Below are positions 2,823 to 12,966 of a stretch of DNA of 12,966 nt, one piece after another. The translations under genes were made by a program, and so were the position numbers. Each line of letters starts with the position of its first letter. Positions within the stretch are counted from its first letter, which is position 1. Under the pieces are notes generated by a model. The model ran no database searches, was not told the origin of the DNA, and saw only the letters and a program-made list of their open reading frames with translations. The DNA comes from Nautiliaceae bacterium (GTDB taxonomy: Bacteria > Campylobacterota > Campylobacteria > Campylobacterales > Nautiliaceae): contig JAMOSM010000071.1 in NCBI GenBank assembly GCA_027063075.1, forward strand, positions 1 to 12,966. The letters are read 5' to 3'.

Positions 2823-3701
2823 ATGCCAAAAAGCGGATTTGTAGGAATTTTAGGAAAGCCGAATGCCGGTAAATCAACTCTTCTTAACTGGCTTTTAGGA
2901 GAAAAAATAGCTCTTGTCTCCCCTAAAGCAAATGCTAGTAGAAAAAGAGTAAATGCAATAGTTATGCACGGCGATGACCAAATTATTCTTTTAGATACCC
3001 CCGGACTTCATGAAAAAGAGAAACTTCTTAATAAATTTATGTTAAAAGAGGCTTTAAAAGCGTTAGGGGATAGTGATTTAGTTTTATTTTTAGCTGATGT
3101 AAAAGATAATCTTGATGGATATAAATGGTTTTTAGAACTTAATAAAAAGAATATTCCTCATATTGTGGTACTTACAAAAACAGACCTTGCAGATAAAGAT
3201 GAAGTGGAAGAAAAGAAAAAAGAGTATGAATCATTAGGCAAAGCTTTAGCAGTGGTACCTATTAGTGCCGTTGAGGGAAAAGGAAAAGAGGAACTTTTAG
3301 ATGAAATTGTAAAACATCTGCCTGAACATCCTTACTATTATGACCCTGAGCTGATTTCGACAGAACATATAAGAGATATTTATAAAGAGCTTATAAGAGA
3401 AGCGCTTTTTGAAAAACTTGGAGATGAATTACCTTATGAAACAGATGTAATTATTGATAAAATAGAAGAATATGATAATTTAGATAAAGTTTATGCTACA
3501 ATTATAGTTGAGCGTCCTAGTCAAAAAGGGATGATTATAGGTAAAAAGGGGCGTAAGATTAAAGAAATAGGTACTTATGCAAGAAAGCTTTTAGAACAGT
3601 TTAGCGGAAAGAAAATATATCTTGAATTATATGTAAAGGTGGTACCGGGCTGGAGCAAAAATAAGCGTATGCTTGAAGAATTAGGATATGAGGTAGATTA
3701 A
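2823..3701 (+). CDS. era: GTPase Era, 30S ribosome assembly factor
   Basis: Era binds the 3' end of 16S rRNA and couples small-subunit maturation to GTP hydrolysis. The 292-residue product has G1 GKPNAGKST at 11-19, G3 DTPG at 58-61, G4 TKTD at 118-121, and G5 SAVEG at 148-152. A C-terminal KH RNA-binding domain carries the GKKG loop at 240-243. Two motifs differ from the textbook form. The G2 region reads SPKANASRKR (33-42) instead of the SRKPQTTR type, and G4 has Thr in place of Asn. The NA-S/T-R form of G2 is also what I recall from Campylobacter Era, so it looks like a lineage trait and not damage. The ATG at 2823 is preceded by AGGAA at 2814-2818. Its stop overlaps the next start by one base (TAATG at 3699-3703). 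Confidence 0.96.
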   Translation: MPKSGFVGILGKPNAGKSTLLNWLLGEKIALVSPKANASRKRVNAIVMHGDDQIILLDTPGLHEKEKLLNKFMLKEALKALGDSDLVLFLADVKDNLDGYKWFLELNKKNIPHIVVLTKTDLADKDEVEEKKKEYESLGKALAVVPISAVEGKGKEELLDEIVKHLPEHPYYYDPELISTEHIRDIYKELIREALFEKLGDELPYETDVIIDKIEEYDNLDKVYATIIVERPSQKGMIIGKKGRKIKEIGTYARKLLEQFSGKKIYLELYVKVVPGWSKNKRMLEELGYEVD

Positions 3702-5284
3702 TGGAACAGGTAAAAAATGAAAAAATTCAGGAGTTTTTAAATAACTTAAAAAATAAATTTAGATTTTTAAACAAATATGATTATAACATTAATGAAGTTA
3801 TAGGTGTTAAAGGTCAAGAGAGATATATTTTATATATAGATAAAAAATTAATCAGAATCTATAGGGGAAAACTTAAATCTTCTCCTTTACTTGCAACTTA
3901 CCTTCCTATTGAAAATGCTATTTTTTATAATTTTAAAGTGGAAAAATCGGTAATTGAAAAAGTTGATTTAAAAAGTTTTATCGAAACTAAAGTTTATGAT
4001 GAAGCGGGGGTTGATGATACGGAAGATTATATTATCAAGTATAAAGTTGTAGAGTATTTAAAAGATGAAAAATATGTAATGATTGAGACTGTTATTGTCC
4101 CTGTTACTTTTTTAAATAATCATTATAAATATATTTTAGAAGAAACAGGTTATATTGATTATATATCATTTCCCGCTTTTGCTTACAGGGCTTTATATGA
4201 AGAAAAAATTTTACAAAAGGCAAATGATTTATTTATCGTACTTTTATACGATAAGATTTTTTTAACTTTTTATTCAGAAGGTGAACTTGTTTATATTCAA
4301 ACCCTCTCAAACGGTTTAGATAAAGTTTTTGATGCATTAAAGCCTTTAAAGATTAAAGATTTTAATGCAGAACTTTTCAAAAAACTGCTTACAAAAAAAG
4401 GTCTTGTTATAAGTAAATATTCAACAGCCGAGTTTGTTGTTTTAGATAAAATAAAAAAAGAGATGAGAAATATATCAAGGGTTATAAAAGAGCAGATAGA
4501 TAGTTTTATAAATCAATATGAAATAGATGAAATAGACAGGATTTTTATTACTTCAGAATATGGTAGGATAGAAGGTTTAGAAGAGTTTATAAAAAAAGAA
4601 CTCAATATTGAAACGTACAATTTTGAATTTTATGAAAAATATAACCTTGACAGACTTCCTGTAGATCCGTTTCTGTTTTTAGGAATGCTTGAAGCCCATT
4701 ATGCATATAAAAACAATGACCAGAGATATAATTTTTCTTTATTTTTAAGAAGACCTACATTTTTTTACAGACCTTCTGGAAAACTTCTTTTGTTTTCTTT
4801 TATATCTATTGTTTTAATGATTGCATATCCTATTTATTTATGGATAAACGGTATGATTTATGAATCAAAGAATAAAAGCTTACAGCATAAAATTTCAATT
4901 TTGAAAAAAGAGCAGAGCGGATTAAATGCTCAGTTAAAAGTTTTAACTGAGAAAGAAAAGAAATTAAATAAAGAGATTTCATCTTATGAAAAAGAGATAA
5001 AAAGAGTACAGAAATTTATAGAAAGTGTATATCAGTTTAAATTTTCTTATATTCCTAAATCTCAAGAACTTGTTGATATAAGTTTTTTAATGAATAAAAA
5101 CGGAGTTTTTGCAGATAATATAAGTTATGAAAATGGAATTTATATTATTAAAGTTTTTTCTTATAAAGAGTCTGCCATTCCAAACTTGATAAAAGAGCTT
5201 TCTGACAATGGATTTTCTGTTAATTTTGATGAGATTGTTTATAAAGATAAAAAATATAATTCTGTTATTAGGATTAAAGAATGA
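3701..5284 (+). CDS. MshI-like pilus/secretion protein: PilM-like domain fused to PilN/GspL-like domain
   Basis: This is a predicted inner-membrane assembly protein of a type IV pilus or type II secretion-like machine. The 527 residues fall into four parts. An acidic/basic cytoplasmic N-terminal domain of about 350 residues resembles the actin-like PilM/MshI fold. One membrane helix follows at about 361-382. A coiled coil spans about 387-445. A small periplasmic alpha/beta domain at about 450-527 resembles PilN/GspL. The segment before the helix (NFSLFLRRP) resembles the short cytoplasmic PilN tail that contacts PilM. No clear actin-type phosphate-binding motif is visible, so nucleotide binding is doubtful. 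The assignment relies mainly on topology and on position, directly before PilO-, PilP- and secretin-like genes. It overlaps era by one base and the next gene by four (ATGA). The topology is well supported; the MshI label is inferred. Confidence 0.7.
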   Translation: MEQVKNEKIQEFLNNLKNKFRFLNKYDYNINEVIGVKGQERYILYIDKKLIRIYRGKLKSSPLLATYLPIENAIFYNFKVEKSVIEKVDLKSFIETKVYDEAGVDDTEDYIIKYKVVEYLKDEKYVMIETVIVPVTFLNNHYKYILEETGYIDYISFPAFAYRALYEEKILQKANDLFIVLLYDKIFLTFYSEGELVYIQTLSNGLDKVFDALKPLKIKDFNAELFKKLLTKKGLVISKYSTAEFVVLDKIKKEMRNISRVIKEQIDSFINQYEIDEIDRIFITSEYGRIEGLEEFIKKELNIETYNFEFYEKYNLDRLPVDPFLFLGMLEAHYAYKNNDQRYNFSLFLRRPTFFYRPSGKLLLFSFISIVLMIAYPIYLWINGMIYESKNKSLQHKISILKKEQSGLNAQLKVLTEKEKKLNKEISSYEKEIKRVQKFIESVYQFKFSYIPKSQELVDISFLMNKNGVFADNISYENGIYIIKVFSYKESAIPNLIKELSDNGFSVNFDEIVYKDKKYNSVIRIKE

Positions 5285-5910
5285 AGTTTTTAGATAGAAT
5301 TGATGACTATTTTTACAGCAGACCTGAAAAAGAATTTTTGTATGTTTTAGGACTTGTAATAGGGATAATTGGATTTTTAATTTATTATTATATCTATCCT
5401 GTTGCAGACCGTTATGAAAGCAGGCAAGAAAAAAATTATAAAAAATTATCAGCCCAGTATAAAAATTTAAAAAGCGATGTTAATCTCTTAAGAATTAGGG
5501 TTTCGGCTTTAAATAAACATATAAAACAAAGAGAAACTCTTTTAGCTAATTTGAAAAAGAAAAAAGTTTTTTATAGTGAGCTTGCAAACCTTCTTGATTT
5601 TGCGGAATTTGACCAGTATAAATGGGCAAATTTTGTAAAAGAAGCCGTTATGAATGCTAAAAATAAGGGTCTTGAAGTGAAAAAAATAGCAAATACTGTT
5701 TATGATATAGATGTTGCCGATAACTCTAAAATGCCTGAAATTGTTAAAAGAATGGATATTGGTATAGAGTTAGAGGGTAAATATAAAAACTTTATATACT
5801 ATCTTTATTCTTATGAGGACAGAAAAGAGTTAATAAGGATAAAAGAGATGAATATTACTTCCCCTGCGAGTTTTTATATCAAACTTTCTATATATGGGTA
5901 TAACAAATGA
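5281..5910 (+). CDS. MshJ/PilO-like inner-membrane alignment protein
   Basis: This is a predicted bitopic inner-membrane protein of the pilus alignment subcomplex, expected to pair with the PilN-like part of the upstream protein. In 209 residues it has a short cytoplasmic N-terminus and one membrane helix at about 19-40 (the LGLVIGIIGFLIYYYIY stretch). A long charged coiled coil follows at about 45-97, then a periplasmic alpha/beta domain to the end. This is the PilO/MshJ/GspM plan, and the length suits the family (about 200-220). Sequence motifs are weak in this family, so the call depends on architecture and order. The ATG at 5281 forms an ATGA overlap with the preceding stop, and the stop forms another ATGA overlap at 5907. 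Confidence 0.7.
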   Translation: MKFLDRIDDYFYSRPEKEFLYVLGLVIGIIGFLIYYYIYPVADRYESRQEKNYKKLSAQYKNLKSDVNLLRIRVSALNKHIKQRETLLANLKKKKVFYSELANLLDFAEFDQYKWANFVKEAVMNAKNKGLEVKKIANTVYDIDVADNSKMPEIVKRMDIGIELEGKYKNFIYYLYSYEDRKELIRIKEMNITSPASFYIKLSIYGYNK

Positions 5911-6332
5911 AAAAGATAGTTATTGTTTTAACAGCGGCTTTAATTTTGTTTGCGCAGGACGATAAATATTTAATGTATGTGAATAAGCTTGTAAATTACC
6001 ATTTTGAGCTTAGAAGTATTACTGATAAACAAATTCCTTTTGAAATAAAAGTAGAACACAATAAAACAAATGTAGCGGTTGAAAAGATTTTAGTAAGAAG
6101 AATAAAAGTAGAGCTTTTGTCTATATTTAATAATATGGCTCATGTAAAAATAAAAGAGTATTTAGGCGACCAGCTAATTAAACAAGAGAGTAAGTGGGTT
6201 AAGAAAGGTGATAAGATTTATGACTGTAAAATTGTTAAAATTACGTTAACAAAAGTTGTTTTAAAATGTAAGGACAGGGTATTAATAAAAACATTAAATA
6301 AAAAAATTCCAGGATTTAAGGAAATAAAATGA
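5907..6332 (+). CDS. MshK/PilP/GspC-like periplasmic protein (CtsR-like position)
   Basis: This is a predicted small exported protein linking the inner-membrane complex to the secretin. In 141 residues it has an N-terminal signal sequence or membrane anchor (KKIVIVLTAALILFAQ, about 2-17). The C-terminal region reads like the PilP/GspC homology domain: W97 VKKGDKIYD (97-106) followed by alternating hydrophobic strands ending KVVLKCKDRV. Two cysteines, C107 and C121, sit on neighbouring predicted strands and could form a disulphide. The gene directly precedes the secretin gene, as mshK does before mshL and as ctsR does before ctsD in Campylobacter jejuni. It overlaps both neighbours by four bases. 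The export signal is clear; the family call is moderate because these proteins diverge fast. Confidence 0.6.
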   Translation: MKKIVIVLTAALILFAQDDKYLMYVNKLVNYHFELRSITDKQIPFEIKVEHNKTNVAVEKILVRRIKVELLSIFNNMAHVKIKEYLGDQLIKQESKWVKKGDKIYDCKIVKITLTKVVLKCKDRVLIKTLNKKIPGFKEIK

Positions 6333-7681
6333 AAAAATTAATTGTGGCTTTTATTATTGCTGTATTTAGTTTTGCAGGTAGCTGTGATAATAAACTATTT
6401 TCTTATTCAAACAGTATGAATGCAAGTGAGAGAATGAGTATAAAAAGTTTTTTGTATCTGTTAGCTACTCAAAAATGTAATGTAAATATTATTGTTAAAG
6501 ATAAAAAAGCCCGGGCTATTTTAAATGAAAAAATGCCTTTTGTAAGAATTAAAAACTATACTTTGCCTCAGATACTTGATTTGATTTTGAAAAAAAGAGG
6601 TCTTTTTTATACGTTAAAAGGAAATGAGTTAATTGTTAGTTATTATAAAACAAAAACATATAAACTGGATTTTATTTCAAGTTCAAGAACAGGTGAAGCA
6701 ATACTTGATGCTACAGACAATAAAATTACAAACAATTATACATTTAATTTCTGGGATACATTTCAGACTCAGTTAAAAACACTTTTAGACAATAATAAAG
6801 GTGAAGATGAAACAGTTTATGAACCTATTGTAAATAAGGATACGGGGGTTATAGTTGTTACCGGTAATATGAGACAGCTTAATGCGGTTGATAAATATGT
6901 TAATAATTTAATGAAATCTTTAACAAAAGAGGTTTTAATAGATGTTAAAATTTATAGCGTAGAGCTTTCAAAATCTCATAAAACAGGAATTGACTGGTCT
7001 CAGCTTTCTGTTTCACTTCCAGATAGTTCAGTTCCTTTGAGAGCTCAGTATGTGTTTGGGTCTAATTCTATTTTTAACTCAACCACATTTAATGTTGGAG
7101 CTTTATTAAACTTTTTGGCTCAAAACGGAAATGTAAATTCAATTTCAAACCCGAAAATTATGACTCTTAACAATCAAAAAGCAATTATCAGTGTAGGGGA
7201 TACAATTTATTATAAATACGCTTCAAAAGTTGTAACAGACCAAAATGGTAATCCGAATACTGAATATACCATTGACTCAAAATTTGTGGGGGTAATTTTA
7301 GATATTACTCCTCAGATAAGTGATAATGGAGAGATTATTTTAAGTATTGCTCCACGAATAAGCGCATTTAGAGATTTAACGCAGTTAGGTACTCAGACTG
7401 TAAGGGATATGCCGCCTGATACAAAAGATAATACAATGCAAAGTATTGTAAAAGTAAAAGATGGGGATACTATTGTTCTTGGAGGTCTTATTAGTGATGA
7501 TAAAAGTTTAAAAGTAAATGGAGTGCCTATTTTAAAAGAGATTCCTATTATAAAATATCTGTTTTCGTCAAAAGAGAAAATTACTTCAAAAAAAGAGATA
7601 GTGTTTGTAATTACTCCTCATATAGTAAATCTTAAAAAGAAAAAAACATTAAGGGATTTAGGTTTTGGCCAATTTCGCTAA
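6329..7681 (+). CDS. mshL: Outer-membrane secretin, MshL/CtsD/PilQ type
   Basis: Secretins form the multimeric outer-membrane channel through which pili, secreted proteins or incoming DNA pass. The 450-residue product has a signal peptide (1-16, cleavage suggested after SFA; a cysteine at 19 makes a lipoprotein alternative possible but the lipobox is poor). An N0/STN-like domain follows at about 34-104, then an N1-type domain at about 165-200 (DTGVIVVTGNMRQLNAVDKYV). The secretin core runs from about 200 to 435 with SNPKIMTLNNQKA at 273-285, VKDGDTIVLGGL at 376-387, and the signature VPILKEIPIIKYLF at 399-412 followed by ITPHIV at 428-433. The gene is intact, and its order before an ExeA-like ATPase gene matches mshL-mshM and ctsD-ctsP. 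The secretin family is certain; which subtype is inferred. Confidence 0.93.
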   Translation: MKKLIVAFIIAVFSFAGSCDNKLFSYSNSMNASERMSIKSFLYLLATQKCNVNIIVKDKKARAILNEKMPFVRIKNYTLPQILDLILKKRGLFYTLKGNELIVSYYKTKTYKLDFISSSRTGEAILDATDNKITNNYTFNFWDTFQTQLKTLLDNNKGEDETVYEPIVNKDTGVIVVTGNMRQLNAVDKYVNNLMKSLTKEVLIDVKIYSVELSKSHKTGIDWSQLSVSLPDSSVPLRAQYVFGSNSIFNSTTFNVGALLNFLAQNGNVNSISNPKIMTLNNQKAIISVGDTIYYKYASKVVTDQNGNPNTEYTIDSKFVGVILDITPQISDNGEIILSIAPRISAFRDLTQLGTQTVRDMPPDTKDNTMQSIVKVKDGDTIVLGGLISDDKSLKVNGVPILKEIPIIKYLFSSKEKITSKKEIVFVITPHIVNLKKKKTLRDLGFGQFR

Positions 7682-8396
7682 AGCAAAAGAGCTTTTTAGG
7701 GATGTCGTTGATTTAAACAACTATATTCCTCTTAGCTCTTCTGAAAAAACAAAAAACGATTTGCTTTTTGCAATTAATCAAAAAGAGAAAATTATTCTTC
7801 TAACAGGAGAAGCCGGAAGTGGTAAGAGTCTTCTTTTAAGAAGTGTATATGAGAGTCTGAAAGAACAAAAAGAGGTTTTTTTTGTAGCTAATCCTTATCT
7901 TGAAATTAATTCGGTATTAGACCTTTTAAAATCACTTGATTTGAAATCCCATCACGTATTGCTTCTTGATGAAGCTCAGCTTTTAGAGGGTGAAACGTGG
8001 GAGAATTTAAGAATTTATGCTGACAGGGGAAACGTAACAATTGTGTTTGCAACTCATGATACGGATATTAAAAAACTTCTTGAAAAAAAACATTTTAGTA
8101 CAAGGATTAATTATATCATTCCTGTAAAACCGATAACCCAAAGCGAGATGGAAAACTTTATATATTCTAAGCTTTTAAAACATAACTTAAACGATATTGC
8201 TGATATGTTTAACAAAAAAAACTTTAAAAAAATTTATAAATACACAAAAGGCTCACTACGCGCTACAAATCAGCTTATGTTTAAACTTTTTGATGTAATG
8301 GATTATTTTTATAAAAAATATCCTTTTAAATTTAAAGAACCGAAAATTGAAGATAAATATATAGAAATTGCCATTATGGATTTAAAGGCTAAATAG
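7665..8396 (+). CDS. mshM: ExeA/MshM-like AAA ATPase (CtsP-like)
   Basis: This is an AAA-type ATPase of the ExeA/MshM class, thought to help assemble or position the secretin or pilus machine at the inner membrane. The 243-residue product has the family's N-terminal region (YIPLSSSEKTKNDLLFAI), Walker A GEAGSGKS at 48-55, Walker B VLLLDEAQ at 98-105, a sensor-1-like IVFATHD at 126-132, and a conserved arginine in STRINYIIPVKPIT (R147). The start is a TTG at 7665, 17 bases inside the secretin gene, with AGGG at 7652-7655. No ATG or GTG lies before the Walker A motif, and a later start would remove family-conserved residues, so TTG is the best choice. It lacks the peptidoglycan-binding C-terminal domain of long ExeA proteins, as in MshM. 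It sits in the same relative place as ctsP in C. jejuni. Confidence 0.85.
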   Translation: MANFAKAKELFRDVVDLNNYIPLSSSEKTKNDLLFAINQKEKIILLTGEAGSGKSLLLRSVYESLKEQKEVFFVANPYLEINSVLDLLKSLDLKSHHVLLLDEAQLLEGETWENLRIYADRGNVTIVFATHDTDIKKLLEKKHFSTRINYIIPVKPITQSEMENFIYSKLLKHNLNDIADMFNKKNFKKIYKYTKGSLRATNQLMFKLFDVMDYFYKKYPFKFKEPKIEDKYIEIAIMDLKAK

Positions 8397-9088
8397 TGCA
8401 TAGATATGAGGAGTTAGAAAGGCTTTATTATAAAAAGCTTTTTTTAAAAATCTTTTTAGGAATTTTTCTTTTTATTGTAATAGTTGTTAGTCTGTTTTTT
8501 TTATTAACTTTTTCGAAAGAGAATAAAAAAGAGACTGTAAAAAAACAAAAAGTTGTAAAATCAAAAGAATCTAAAAAAGAAAAAAACGATACAAAAAAAA
8601 TTGAAAAAAAAGTTTTTGTTAAAAAAACGCAAAACAAAATTGAGCCTCTTAATTTTATTGTGCCTGATATTGAAGAGAAAAAAGAGTCTAAACCTGTTAA
8701 AACAGAAAATCAAAATGAAAAAAAGCCTCTAAAAGTTAAAAAAGAAGTCAAAAAAAGATATCCTATTATTAAAGAAGTTCCTGTTATTCAAGAAAAAGAG
8801 GTTAAAATAGATGATTTAATAAAAAGTTATAAACTAAATCCAAATTATGATTTAGCATTAATGATAGCAAAAAAGTTTTATAAAAAAAATAATTTAAAAT
8901 CTGCACAGATTTGGGTTATTAAAGCCAATAATTTAGACCCTTCAAGAGTGGAGAGTTGGCTTTTATTTGCCGATATACTTCTTAAAGAACACAAAAAACA
9001 AAAAGCCTTAGAGGTACTTAAAATATATTTAGACCAATATGGAGACAATGAGGCTGTAAGTGCAAAAATAAGGAGTATTAATGAATGA
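8396..9088 (+). CDS. MshN-like membrane-anchored TPR protein (CtsX-like position)
   Basis: This is a predicted bitopic inner-membrane protein of the pilus/competence machine. In 230 residues it has a charged N-terminus, a membrane helix at about 16-38, a long Lys/Glu-rich linker at about 41-135 that must span part of the periplasm, and a C-terminal helical repeat at about 137-222. The repeat reads as two TPR units, with AQIWVIKANNLDPSRVESW and then LLKEHKKQKALEVLKIYL. This is the MshN plan, though shorter than usual. In C. jejuni the equivalent slot holds ctsX, whose product is reported to work with CtsP. The start is GTG at 8396, overlapping the preceding TAG by one base, with AAAGG at about 8384-8388. 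The linker is coded by long A tracts (8593-8600, 8604-8611, 8621-8627). Topology is clear; function is inferred. Confidence 0.65.
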   Translation: MHRYEELERLYYKKLFLKIFLGIFLFIVIVVSLFFLLTFSKENKKETVKKQKVVKSKESKKEKNDTKKIEKKVFVKKTQNKIEPLNFIVPDIEEKKESKPVKTENQNEKKPLKVKKEVKKRYPIIKEVPVIQEKEVKIDDLIKSYKLNPNYDLALMIAKKFYKKNNLKSAQIWVIKANNLDPSRVESWLLFADILLKEHKKQKALEVLKIYLDQYGDNEAVSAKIRSINE

Positions 9089-9869
9089 GAAAATAATAAA
9101 ACAGATAAAATCCCTTCCTCCTTTACCAAAAAGTGTAATGGAAGTGCAAAGAATTACTTCTGATCCAAACTCATCAATAGCCGATTTGGTAAAGGTTATA
9201 AAAGATGACCCGATGTTGACGGCTAACTTGTTAAAAGTTGCAAATTCTCCTCTATATGGTTTTGCAAGGCAAATTAAAAGTGTAGACCAGGCGGTTGCTC
9301 TTTTTGGAATGACTACAATAAAAGGTTTTGCAATCTCTTTTGCTATTAGAAATAGTATGAAATTTGATTTAAGTGCTTATGGAATTGATGAAAATCATTT
9401 TCACGATGTAAGCATAAAAAGAAATGCAGTGGCAATTCAGTGGTATGCAGGTAAAAAAGAAAAACTTGATATAATTGCAATTGACTCTTTTTTAATAGAT
9501 TTAGGGGCGGTGATAATTTCTCTGGTTTTACTTGGTGAAAATAGGGCGGATGAATTTAGAAAAAGATTAAATAAACAAAATAGGTTTTCTTTAGAAAAAG
9601 AGTTTGTAGGGGCTACTACTCCTGAAATTACTGCGGAAATATTTAAACACTGGCATTTTGGAGATGAGCTTATAATCCCAATAGAAAATATAGATAATCC
9701 TTTTAATGCCGATAAGTTTCAAGAAGAAGCGGCGGCCCTTGATACTTTGAGAGTTTTATATGATATGTTGGATTTAAGCCCGGATAAGCAGAATGCTTTT
9801 AAAAAAGCAAAAGAGTATAATTTAGACGTTAAAAAGTTAAATAAAGTTTTAGAAAAATTAGAAAGGTAA
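9081..9869 (+). CDS. HDOD-domain regulatory protein
   Basis: HDOD domains are HD-fold relatives without the metal-binding His-Asp pair; they occur in signalling proteins linked to motility and stress, but their biochemical role is mostly unknown. The 262-residue product opens with the hallmark LPPLPKSVMEVQRI (12-25), DPMLTANLLKVANSPLYG (43-60), and IKSVDQAVALFGM (65-77). In the region where catalytic HD proteins have His-Asp, this one has LIDLG (138-142), so phosphohydrolase activity is unlikely. There is no attached GGDEF, EAL or kinase domain. The ATG at 9081 has AGGAG at 9071-9075 and overlaps the previous gene by eight bases. Its location directly after the mshN-like gene hints at regulation of the pilus-type machine, but that is an inference from position only. 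Confidence 0.9.
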   Translation: MNEKIIKQIKSLPPLPKSVMEVQRITSDPNSSIADLVKVIKDDPMLTANLLKVANSPLYGFARQIKSVDQAVALFGMTTIKGFAISFAIRNSMKFDLSAYGIDENHFHDVSIKRNAVAIQWYAGKKEKLDIIAIDSFLIDLGAVIISLVLLGENRADEFRKRLNKQNRFSLEKEFVGATTPEITAEIFKHWHFGDELIIPIENIDNPFNADKFQEEAAALDTLRVLYDMLDLSPDKQNAFKKAKEYNLDVKKLNKVLEKLER

Positions 9870-12033: not shown

Positions 12034-12966
12034 ATGAATTACGTTTATCGTTTCAGACTTTATCCTACAAAAGAGCAAGAGCGATTTTTAAAACAAGAAG
12101 GGGGAAACATAAGGTTTGTATATAATTATTTCCTTTCACTTGCGAAAAAAGAGTATGAATCTACTCAAAAGAAGTGGGACTTTTATGAATATAAAAAATT
12201 ACTTCCAGAATTGAAAAAAGAATTTGAGTTTTTAAAACTTTCTAACTCACAGTCACTTCAAGAGAGCTTAAAAAACCTTGATAAAGCATTTAAAAATTTT
12301 TTCAAAGGACTTACTGATTTTCCAAAATTTAAGAAAAAGAAAAAAGTTAATTCAATTTTAATTCCTCAACATTTTAAAATTGAAAGTAACAAAGTAAAAA
12401 TTCCGAAATTAAAAATTTCAATCAAATTTAAAAAACATAGAATTATAGAAGGAGAGATTAAGTCTATATCTATTGTTATTACTCCAAGCGGGAAATATTA
12501 TCTCAATGTTTTAACCGATAGAGAAATAAAACCGCTTCCTAAAGCAAATAAGGCAGTAGGAATAGATATGGGCTTAACAGACTTTATAGTTACAAGCGAT
12601 AAGCAGGTTATTAAAAACCCTAAACATTTCAAAAAACTTGAAAGGAGGTTAAAATTATGGCAAAGAAGATTATCAAGAAAAGAAAAAGAGAGTAATAATT
12701 TTAAGAAATGGGCCAAAAGAGTAGCAAAATTACATGAAAAAACCACTAATGCTAAAAATGATTTTCTACACAAATTATCAAGAAAATTTATTGACGAAAA
12801 CCAAGTCATAATAGTAGAAAAATTAAACATTAAAGGCTTAATCAAAAACAAAAGGCTCTCAAAACATATTCATCAAGCAAGTTGGTATAAGTTTATCAAT
12901 ATGCTTGAATATAAGGCAAAATTTTATGGAAGAGAATTAATCAAAGTAGATACGTTTTATCCATCA
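12034..12966 (+). CDS. tnpB: TnpB-family RNA-guided nuclease (OrfB), truncated by the window edge
   Basis: TnpB proteins of IS200/IS605 elements are RuvC-type nucleases guided by an omega RNA, ancestral to Cas12; they help retain the element at its donor site. The 311 visible residues begin with the family's N-terminus MNYVYRFRLYPTKEQERFL, followed by FVYNYFLSL and the DFPKFKKKK segment (95-104). The RuvC core supplies GIDMGLTDF with catalytic D178 (176-184) and IIVEKLNIKGL with catalytic E262 (259-269). ASWYKFINMLEYKAKFYG (282-299) precedes the zinc-finger region. The sequence stops at DTFYPS, just where the Cys4 zinc finger and third catalytic Asp should follow, so perhaps 60-90 residues lie outside. 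The ATG at 12034 has AAGGA at 12024-12028. No frameshift or stop is seen, so the gene may be functional. Confidence 0.92.
   Translation, partial: MNYVYRFRLYPTKEQERFLKQEGGNIRFVYNYFLSLAKKEYESTQKKWDFYEYKKLLPELKKEFEFLKLSNSQSLQESLKNLDKAFKNFFKGLTDFPKFKKKKKVNSILIPQHFKIESNKVKIPKLKISIKFKKHRIIEGEIKSISIVITPSGKYYLNVLTDREIKPLPKANKAVGIDMGLTDFIVTSDKQVIKNPKHFKKLERRLKLWQRRLSRKEKESNNFKKWAKRVAKLHEKTTNAKNDFLHKLSRKFIDENQVIIVEKLNIKGLIKNKRLSKHIHQASWYKFINMLEYKAKFYGRELIKVDTFYPS

Follow-up and report, generated by a model that had tools for sequence, protein, structure and literature searches.

An MSHA-type gene block behind era in a Nautiliaceae bacterium and candidate PilM-PilN and PilO partners of the Campylobacter Cts system

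The Cts transformation system of Campylobacter jejuni is described in the open-licence literature without PilM, PilN and PilO, the parts that join motor to secretin in other type IV pilus (T4P) machines, and a locus in a Nautiliaceae bacterium raises the question of where such parts might be found. The stretch analysed (the window) comprises 12,966 nucleotides of contig JAMOSM010000071.1 and carries, directly behind era, six genes that are, with good probability, relatives of most of the envelope part of a T4P of the mannose-sensitive haemagglutinin (MSHA) type; by the same judgement, the pair of genes behind era in the C. jejuni genus, at the place of Cj0660c and Cj0659c, likely completes Cts. 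The block at 3701-9088 consists of six open reading frames (ORFs) in a row, all on the + strand, preceded by era:

2823..3701, + strand: era (Pfam MMR_HSR1 and KH_2), closing an rplI-hslV-hslU-era block
3701..5284, + strand: predicted PilM-PilN fusion of GspL/MshI design, 527 amino acids (relatives and predicted structure)
5281..5910, + strand: PilO-like protein, 209 amino acids (Pfam PilO in relatives; own protein below cut-offs)
5907..6332, + strand: putative PilP/CtsR-like periplasmic protein, 141 amino acids (position, family profile and relatives' T2SSC/T2SSB)
6329..7681, + strand: MshL/CtsD-type secretin, 450 amino acids (PF00263, TIGR02519)
7665..8396, + strand: ExeA/MshM/CtsP-like P-loop ATPase, 243 amino acids, TTG start (AAA_22, Walker motifs)
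8396..9088, + strand: membrane-anchored TPR protein, MshN/CtsX-like, 230 amino acids, GTG start (weak TPR matches; family profile)

The overlaps amount to 1 base at era/PilMN, 4 bases at each of PilMN/PilO, PilO/PilP and PilP/secretin, 17 bases at secretin/ATPase and 1 base at ATPase/TPR, and the TPR gene overlaps a downstream HDOD gene by 8 bases. A first-pass annotation, made from the sequence alone, had described six consecutive overlapping genes coupled to era, which the ORFs and their junctions confirm. The block is flanked upstream by rplI-hslV-hslU-era and downstream by the HDOD gene and RNase R.

None of the Pfam families PilM, PilN, PilO and PilP was found in the window's own proteins, the NCBIfam PilM profile reached only 0.0054 on the fusion, and a PDB sequence search with the fusion returned no PilM or PilN match. 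As these searches gave no PilM/PilN, a predicted structure was needed; in it the fusion combines a PilM fold with a GspL periplasmic domain, and this model supports the PilM-PilN identity. Pfam PilM_2 and PilN were each matched in 1 of 41 relatives of the fusion. The PilO-like protein itself falls below Pfam cut-offs (T2SSM 0.065), while Pfam PilO was matched at E ≤ 0.01 in 21 of 35 aligned relatives. A PilP identity is supported for the next protein by its position, the family profile and weak matches of its relatives to T2SSC (0.0029) and T2SSB (6e-5). The secretin was matched by Pfam PF00263 at 2.2e-48 and by the NCBIfam MshL profile TIGR02519 at 6.7e-71, with 238.7 bits, slightly below the cut-off of 250.2; that curated cut-off was reached in none of the 8 genomes of the window's family. 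The ATPase matches AAA_22 (8.4e-13) and carries the motifs GEAGSGKS and VLLLDE, and the Pfam matches of the TPR gene are weak and all below cut-off (ANAPC3 1.7e-4).

The MSHA operon of V. cholerae is like the window set in the order and kinds of its genes (GspL/PilN-like, PilO, (K), secretin, ExeA-like, TPR), with mshK presumably standing between mshJ and mshL, and it goes on into genes of PilB and PilC type. The window likewise reads PilMN-O-P-secretin-ExeA-like-TPR. The Vibrio order cited at first pass agrees with PMC4624765, in which Table 1 gives mshI as GspL/PilN-like, mshJ as PilO, mshL as secretin, mshM as ExeA-like and mshN as TPR, together with mshE and mshG. Unlike the V. cholerae operon, the window set is linked to era, pilB and pilC are not adjacent to it, and a motif scan of the window genes gave no pilin or prepilin motif. 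The PilM fold with its GspL periplasmic domain, and PilO in relatives, are shared with GspL/GspM of type II systems and PilM/N/O/P of type IVa systems; PilM and PilN lie in one chain, as in GspL, and the secretin is of the MshL type.

A single-sequence search with the window fusion matched 129 of the 249 genomes of the phylum, and 14 era-linked loci from other genera were mapped, some picked for their match to the fusion (L040, L041, L042, L047, L048, L049, L050, L051, L053, L054) and the others (L062, L063, L074, L075) belonging to a set of 20 loci retrieved through the location of era. All 14 run on into pilB- and pilC-kind genes in the same cluster, which the window does not, and their gene order is the Vibrio mshI-J-K-L-M-N-E-G order. 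Because the block recurs behind era in these 14 loci, it is more than chance. Neither an ATPase nor a TPR gene is present in L047, two genes intervene between era and the fusion in L049, and the fusion gene is broken or split in L063 and L075. At the remaining loci of that set of 20 outside the C. jejuni genus, other genes come next after era (L057-L060, L066-L071, L076), the contig ends there (L061) or a compressed set follows (L072, L073). In some g12 genomes (L057-L060 and L035-L039), a ribB/A-like gene comes after era, with the Pfam match seen for L057, and pilMN-O-P-secretin stands at another locus that has no ATPase or TPR gene. An unassigned protein of ~180 amino acids with a signal-like start is encoded between the TPR gene and pilB or, in the window's family, next to the orphan pilB (L049, L050, L053, L054, L159, L164); it was considered as a pseudopilin and dropped, since it lacks a prepilin motif and matches no Pfam family at cut-off strength.

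The sample of the C. jejuni genus (C. jejuni, C. coli, C. volucris) comprised 49 genomes, with 38 era loci mapped. Here ctsR-D-P-X-E-F (pilP to pilC) stands apart from era. Profiles from the era-linked pilP, mshL, AAA, TPR, pilB and pilC label these genes one by one, which supports the proposed equation of ctsR-D-P-X with mshK-L-M-N; CtsR, D, P and X all have relatives in the window, standing in that order, and one TPR family profile labels both the window gene and the gene at the ctsX place. In the secretin tree, CtsD groups at 98/99 with secretins from the era-linked loci of families f3 and f10. The MshL-type secretin profile was matched in all 49 genomes, weakly or in fragments in at least G066, G188, G100, G260 and G011. 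Twelve of the 20 cts loci mapped have the full pilP-secretin-ATPase-TPR-pilB-pilC order, the complete ones sitting behind a gene of 1186-1196 amino acids (pyruvate oxidoreductase in L176); the other 8 are reduced, decayed, separated or cut. Among these, the C. lari-type loci L181, L182 and L188 have no CtsP ATPase and a short CtsX/TPR gene (the secretin of L181 being interrupted), pilB and pilC are missing at L184 and L193, L187 is cut by a contig end with its secretin split, L190 has no pilP ORF and L186 is decayed. The PilMN-like protein is most divergent in the genomes of those three C. lari-type loci. Absence of ctsP in C. lari is reported in PMC8308473, and the lengths given there (ctsD 472, ctsP 202, ctsX 195, ctsE 519 amino acids) agree with those of the mapped genes. 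No PilMN or PilO match was found at any of the 20 cts loci mapped. Cts is like the era-linked blocks in that PilP, secretin, ATPase, TPR, PilB and PilC are one family by profile, and unlike it in that PilM-PilN and PilO stay behind era while the rest is split off.

Behind era, an intact pair of genes (~300-400 and 160-200 amino acids) was found in 36 of the 38 loci mapped; in L138 the first gene is broken and in L139 the second is cut to 85 amino acids. Profile-profile comparison (hhalign) of the pair with the era-linked PilM-PilN and PilO gave E-values of 4e-19 and 1.5e-18. The second gene also matches the PilMN profile at 2.9e-7, a value raised by the likeness of PilN and PilO. The first protein is highly variable, the beginning of its PilM domain is missing, and homology supports its assignment as a shortened PilM-PilN and that of the second as PilO. 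The suggestion that Cj0660c and Cj0659c are the MshI and MshJ partners of Cts is accordingly supported as to homology and gene order, with the amendment that the first gene corresponds to a shortened PilM-PilN and not to a complete fusion. As to gene names, we take Cj0661c to be era and Cj0653 to be an aminopeptidase. An M24 peptidase comes next after the era+2 gene in L135, and a prophage lies in one strain between ORFs matching Cj0653 and Cj0659 (PMC3569610), which together fit era+2 being Cj0659. P0006, a C. jejuni 'Periplasmic protein', shares 94% identity with the product of the era+2 gene in L136, the L117 protein shares 99.7% identity with one named C. coli, and a contig scan returned one locus, from C. 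volucris (G011).

PilM, PilN and PilO homologues have also been assigned to the flagellar motor, where FcpMNO form part of a cage; fused pilMN clusters are reported in half of the species, and C. jejuni 81-176 is stated to have no other T4P components (PMC11870540). The era pair might on this basis belong to the cage as FcpM/N/O homologues and not to Cts, and FcpN and FcpO do align with the era-linked family as remote homologues (hhalign probability 92 and 91, E 5.2e-7 and 8.7e-7). The pair itself, however, lies much nearer the era-linked family than FcpM/N/O, against which it gave 0.69, 1.7e-4 and 8e-5 (the Fcp profiles, of 7 rows each, being less sensitive). All 7 genomes mapped, out of 9 searched, carry separate genes linked to miaB, and, whereas the cage genes are unfused and stand behind miaB, the window genes are era-linked and fused. 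Cage membership of the pair was rejected as very improbable. In our reading, the split of the operon kept the C. jejuni T4P components from being seen in that study.

Several observations weigh against reading these genes as parts of such a machine and the era pair as completing Cts. A fold search of predicted structures scored FtsA close to PilM and hardly probed the PilN half of the L135 model, and 11 of 37 PilMN-like genes escape the profile from other genera. The PilB tree leaves CtsE unplaced, and in G069 a PilO-like gene is cut beside a secretin that looks intact. In V. cholerae, mutants lacking mshI, mshM or mshN are still piliated, and mshI deletion does not lower the amount of pilus (PMC4624765). 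The PilMN profile was matched in 189 of 249 genomes (E ≤ 1e-4) and the secretin profile in 222 (E ≤ 1e-30); co-occurrence thus falls short of strict, since at least 36 secretin-bearing genomes lack a PilMN match, although two of these (G059, G193) do match a closer profile. Among 20 of the 27 secretin-negative genomes that were listed, 17 do not appear among the PilMN matches, the others being G066 (decayed), G051 (E 6e-5) and G080 (E 9e-5); in G066, cts is decayed and the first gene of the era pair is broken as well. Rate covariation between the pair and the cts genes is weak and at best suggestive: over 19 of 20 paired genomes (G066 left out), uncorrected for shared ancestry, residual distances of the first gene correlate with those of cts genes at r 0.36-0.69, of era at 0.35 and of rplI at -0.16, and those of the second gene at 0.33-0.54, 0.22 and 0.05. 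Finally, Cj0659c is listed among essential periplasmic proteins in one screen (PMC5557513), which is unlike a competence gene.

That listing, with the variable first protein and its missing PilM-domain start, would suit a pair that has left the pilus machine, either for an essential envelope role or as a decaying relic. We regard this as unlikely. Intactness in 36 of 38 genomes argues that the pair is not a relic, and its residual distances follow those of the cts genes more than those of rplI, with era up to 0.35. Strict essentiality is disfavoured by the 85-amino-acid remnant in L139 and by P0021, a single sequence in which approximately the first 70 residues of a Cj0659c-like PilO are joined to a PF00854 transporter, and which may reflect a deletion in nature or an error of assembly; both suggest that Cj0659c can be lost.

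Other genera have the operon whole; in the window's family it is cut after the TPR gene, and in the C. jejuni genus the break follows PilO. With the pair left behind era and cts elsewhere, Cts therefore seems rather likely to be an MSHA-type machine with its operon broken in two, holding its inner-membrane alignment complex as Cj0660c (a GspL-like PilM-PilN whose PilM is amputated and probably nucleotide-free) and Cj0659c (PilO). PilMN and PilO would form that complex, PilP would link it to the secretin, the ATPase and TPR protein would aid secretin assembly, and PilB and PilC, encoded elsewhere, would power a pilus or pseudopilus. We infer that these proteins assemble into a single complex and that this complex takes up DNA, and, from sequence relationships, that the era pair of the C. 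jejuni genus works in DNA uptake. The kind of machine is already known; its members are newly recognised. The open-licence literature yielded neither a link of Cts to PilM/N/O nor a transformation assay of Cj0660c or Cj0659c, the passages searched in papers naming these two genes gave nothing about pili, and PilM, PilN and PilO are not named in those of PMC10046745, PMC10893306, PMC8308473 and PMC9856085. On this reading, two unassigned genes of a major pathogen would gain a place set apart from the flagellar PilM/N/O relatives, the gap in Cts would become testable and Cts would have its origin in a broken-up MSHA-type operon.

In the window organism, the cluster could instead build an MSHA-type surface-attachment pilus unrelated to DNA uptake, a possibility we hold to be real although not the favoured one. 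It would agree with the MSHA gene order and with an unlinked family locus (L159, L160, L161, L174) that encodes a PilT-like ATPase along with PilB, PilC and the 180-amino-acid protein, and some genomes have a second, pilin-bearing cluster (L045, L046); set against this, the window cluster agrees in position and family with the genes that the cts system left behind. ComEC was matched in 29 of 29 genomes scanned, the window's own included, which does not decide on uptake, as the match also occurs in genomes without the cluster at era. In G004 (L172), as in the window, pilB and pilC lie away from the six-gene set, and the window's own assembly, which is 70% complete, has pieces of the PilB/PilC locus on contigs C25 and C117. 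The family's orphan PilB falls outside the era-linked clade in the PilB tree, and the claim of displacement therefore rests on profile matches and the shared 180-amino-acid neighbour. The second cluster was seen in L043, L045 and L046, pilins within the family being seen only there; its secretin is ~56-58% identical to that of the window and its PilMN only ~24-30%, and the genes of these clusters therefore differ in their history.

The HDOD gene at 9081-9869 (+), which is followed by RNase R and has a counterpart by length in L172, may be a regulator meaningfully coupled to the pilus operon. At the far end of the window, 12034-12966 (+) encodes an IS605 OrfB/TnpB-like protein (PF01385, 3.1e-26) that continues past the window end.
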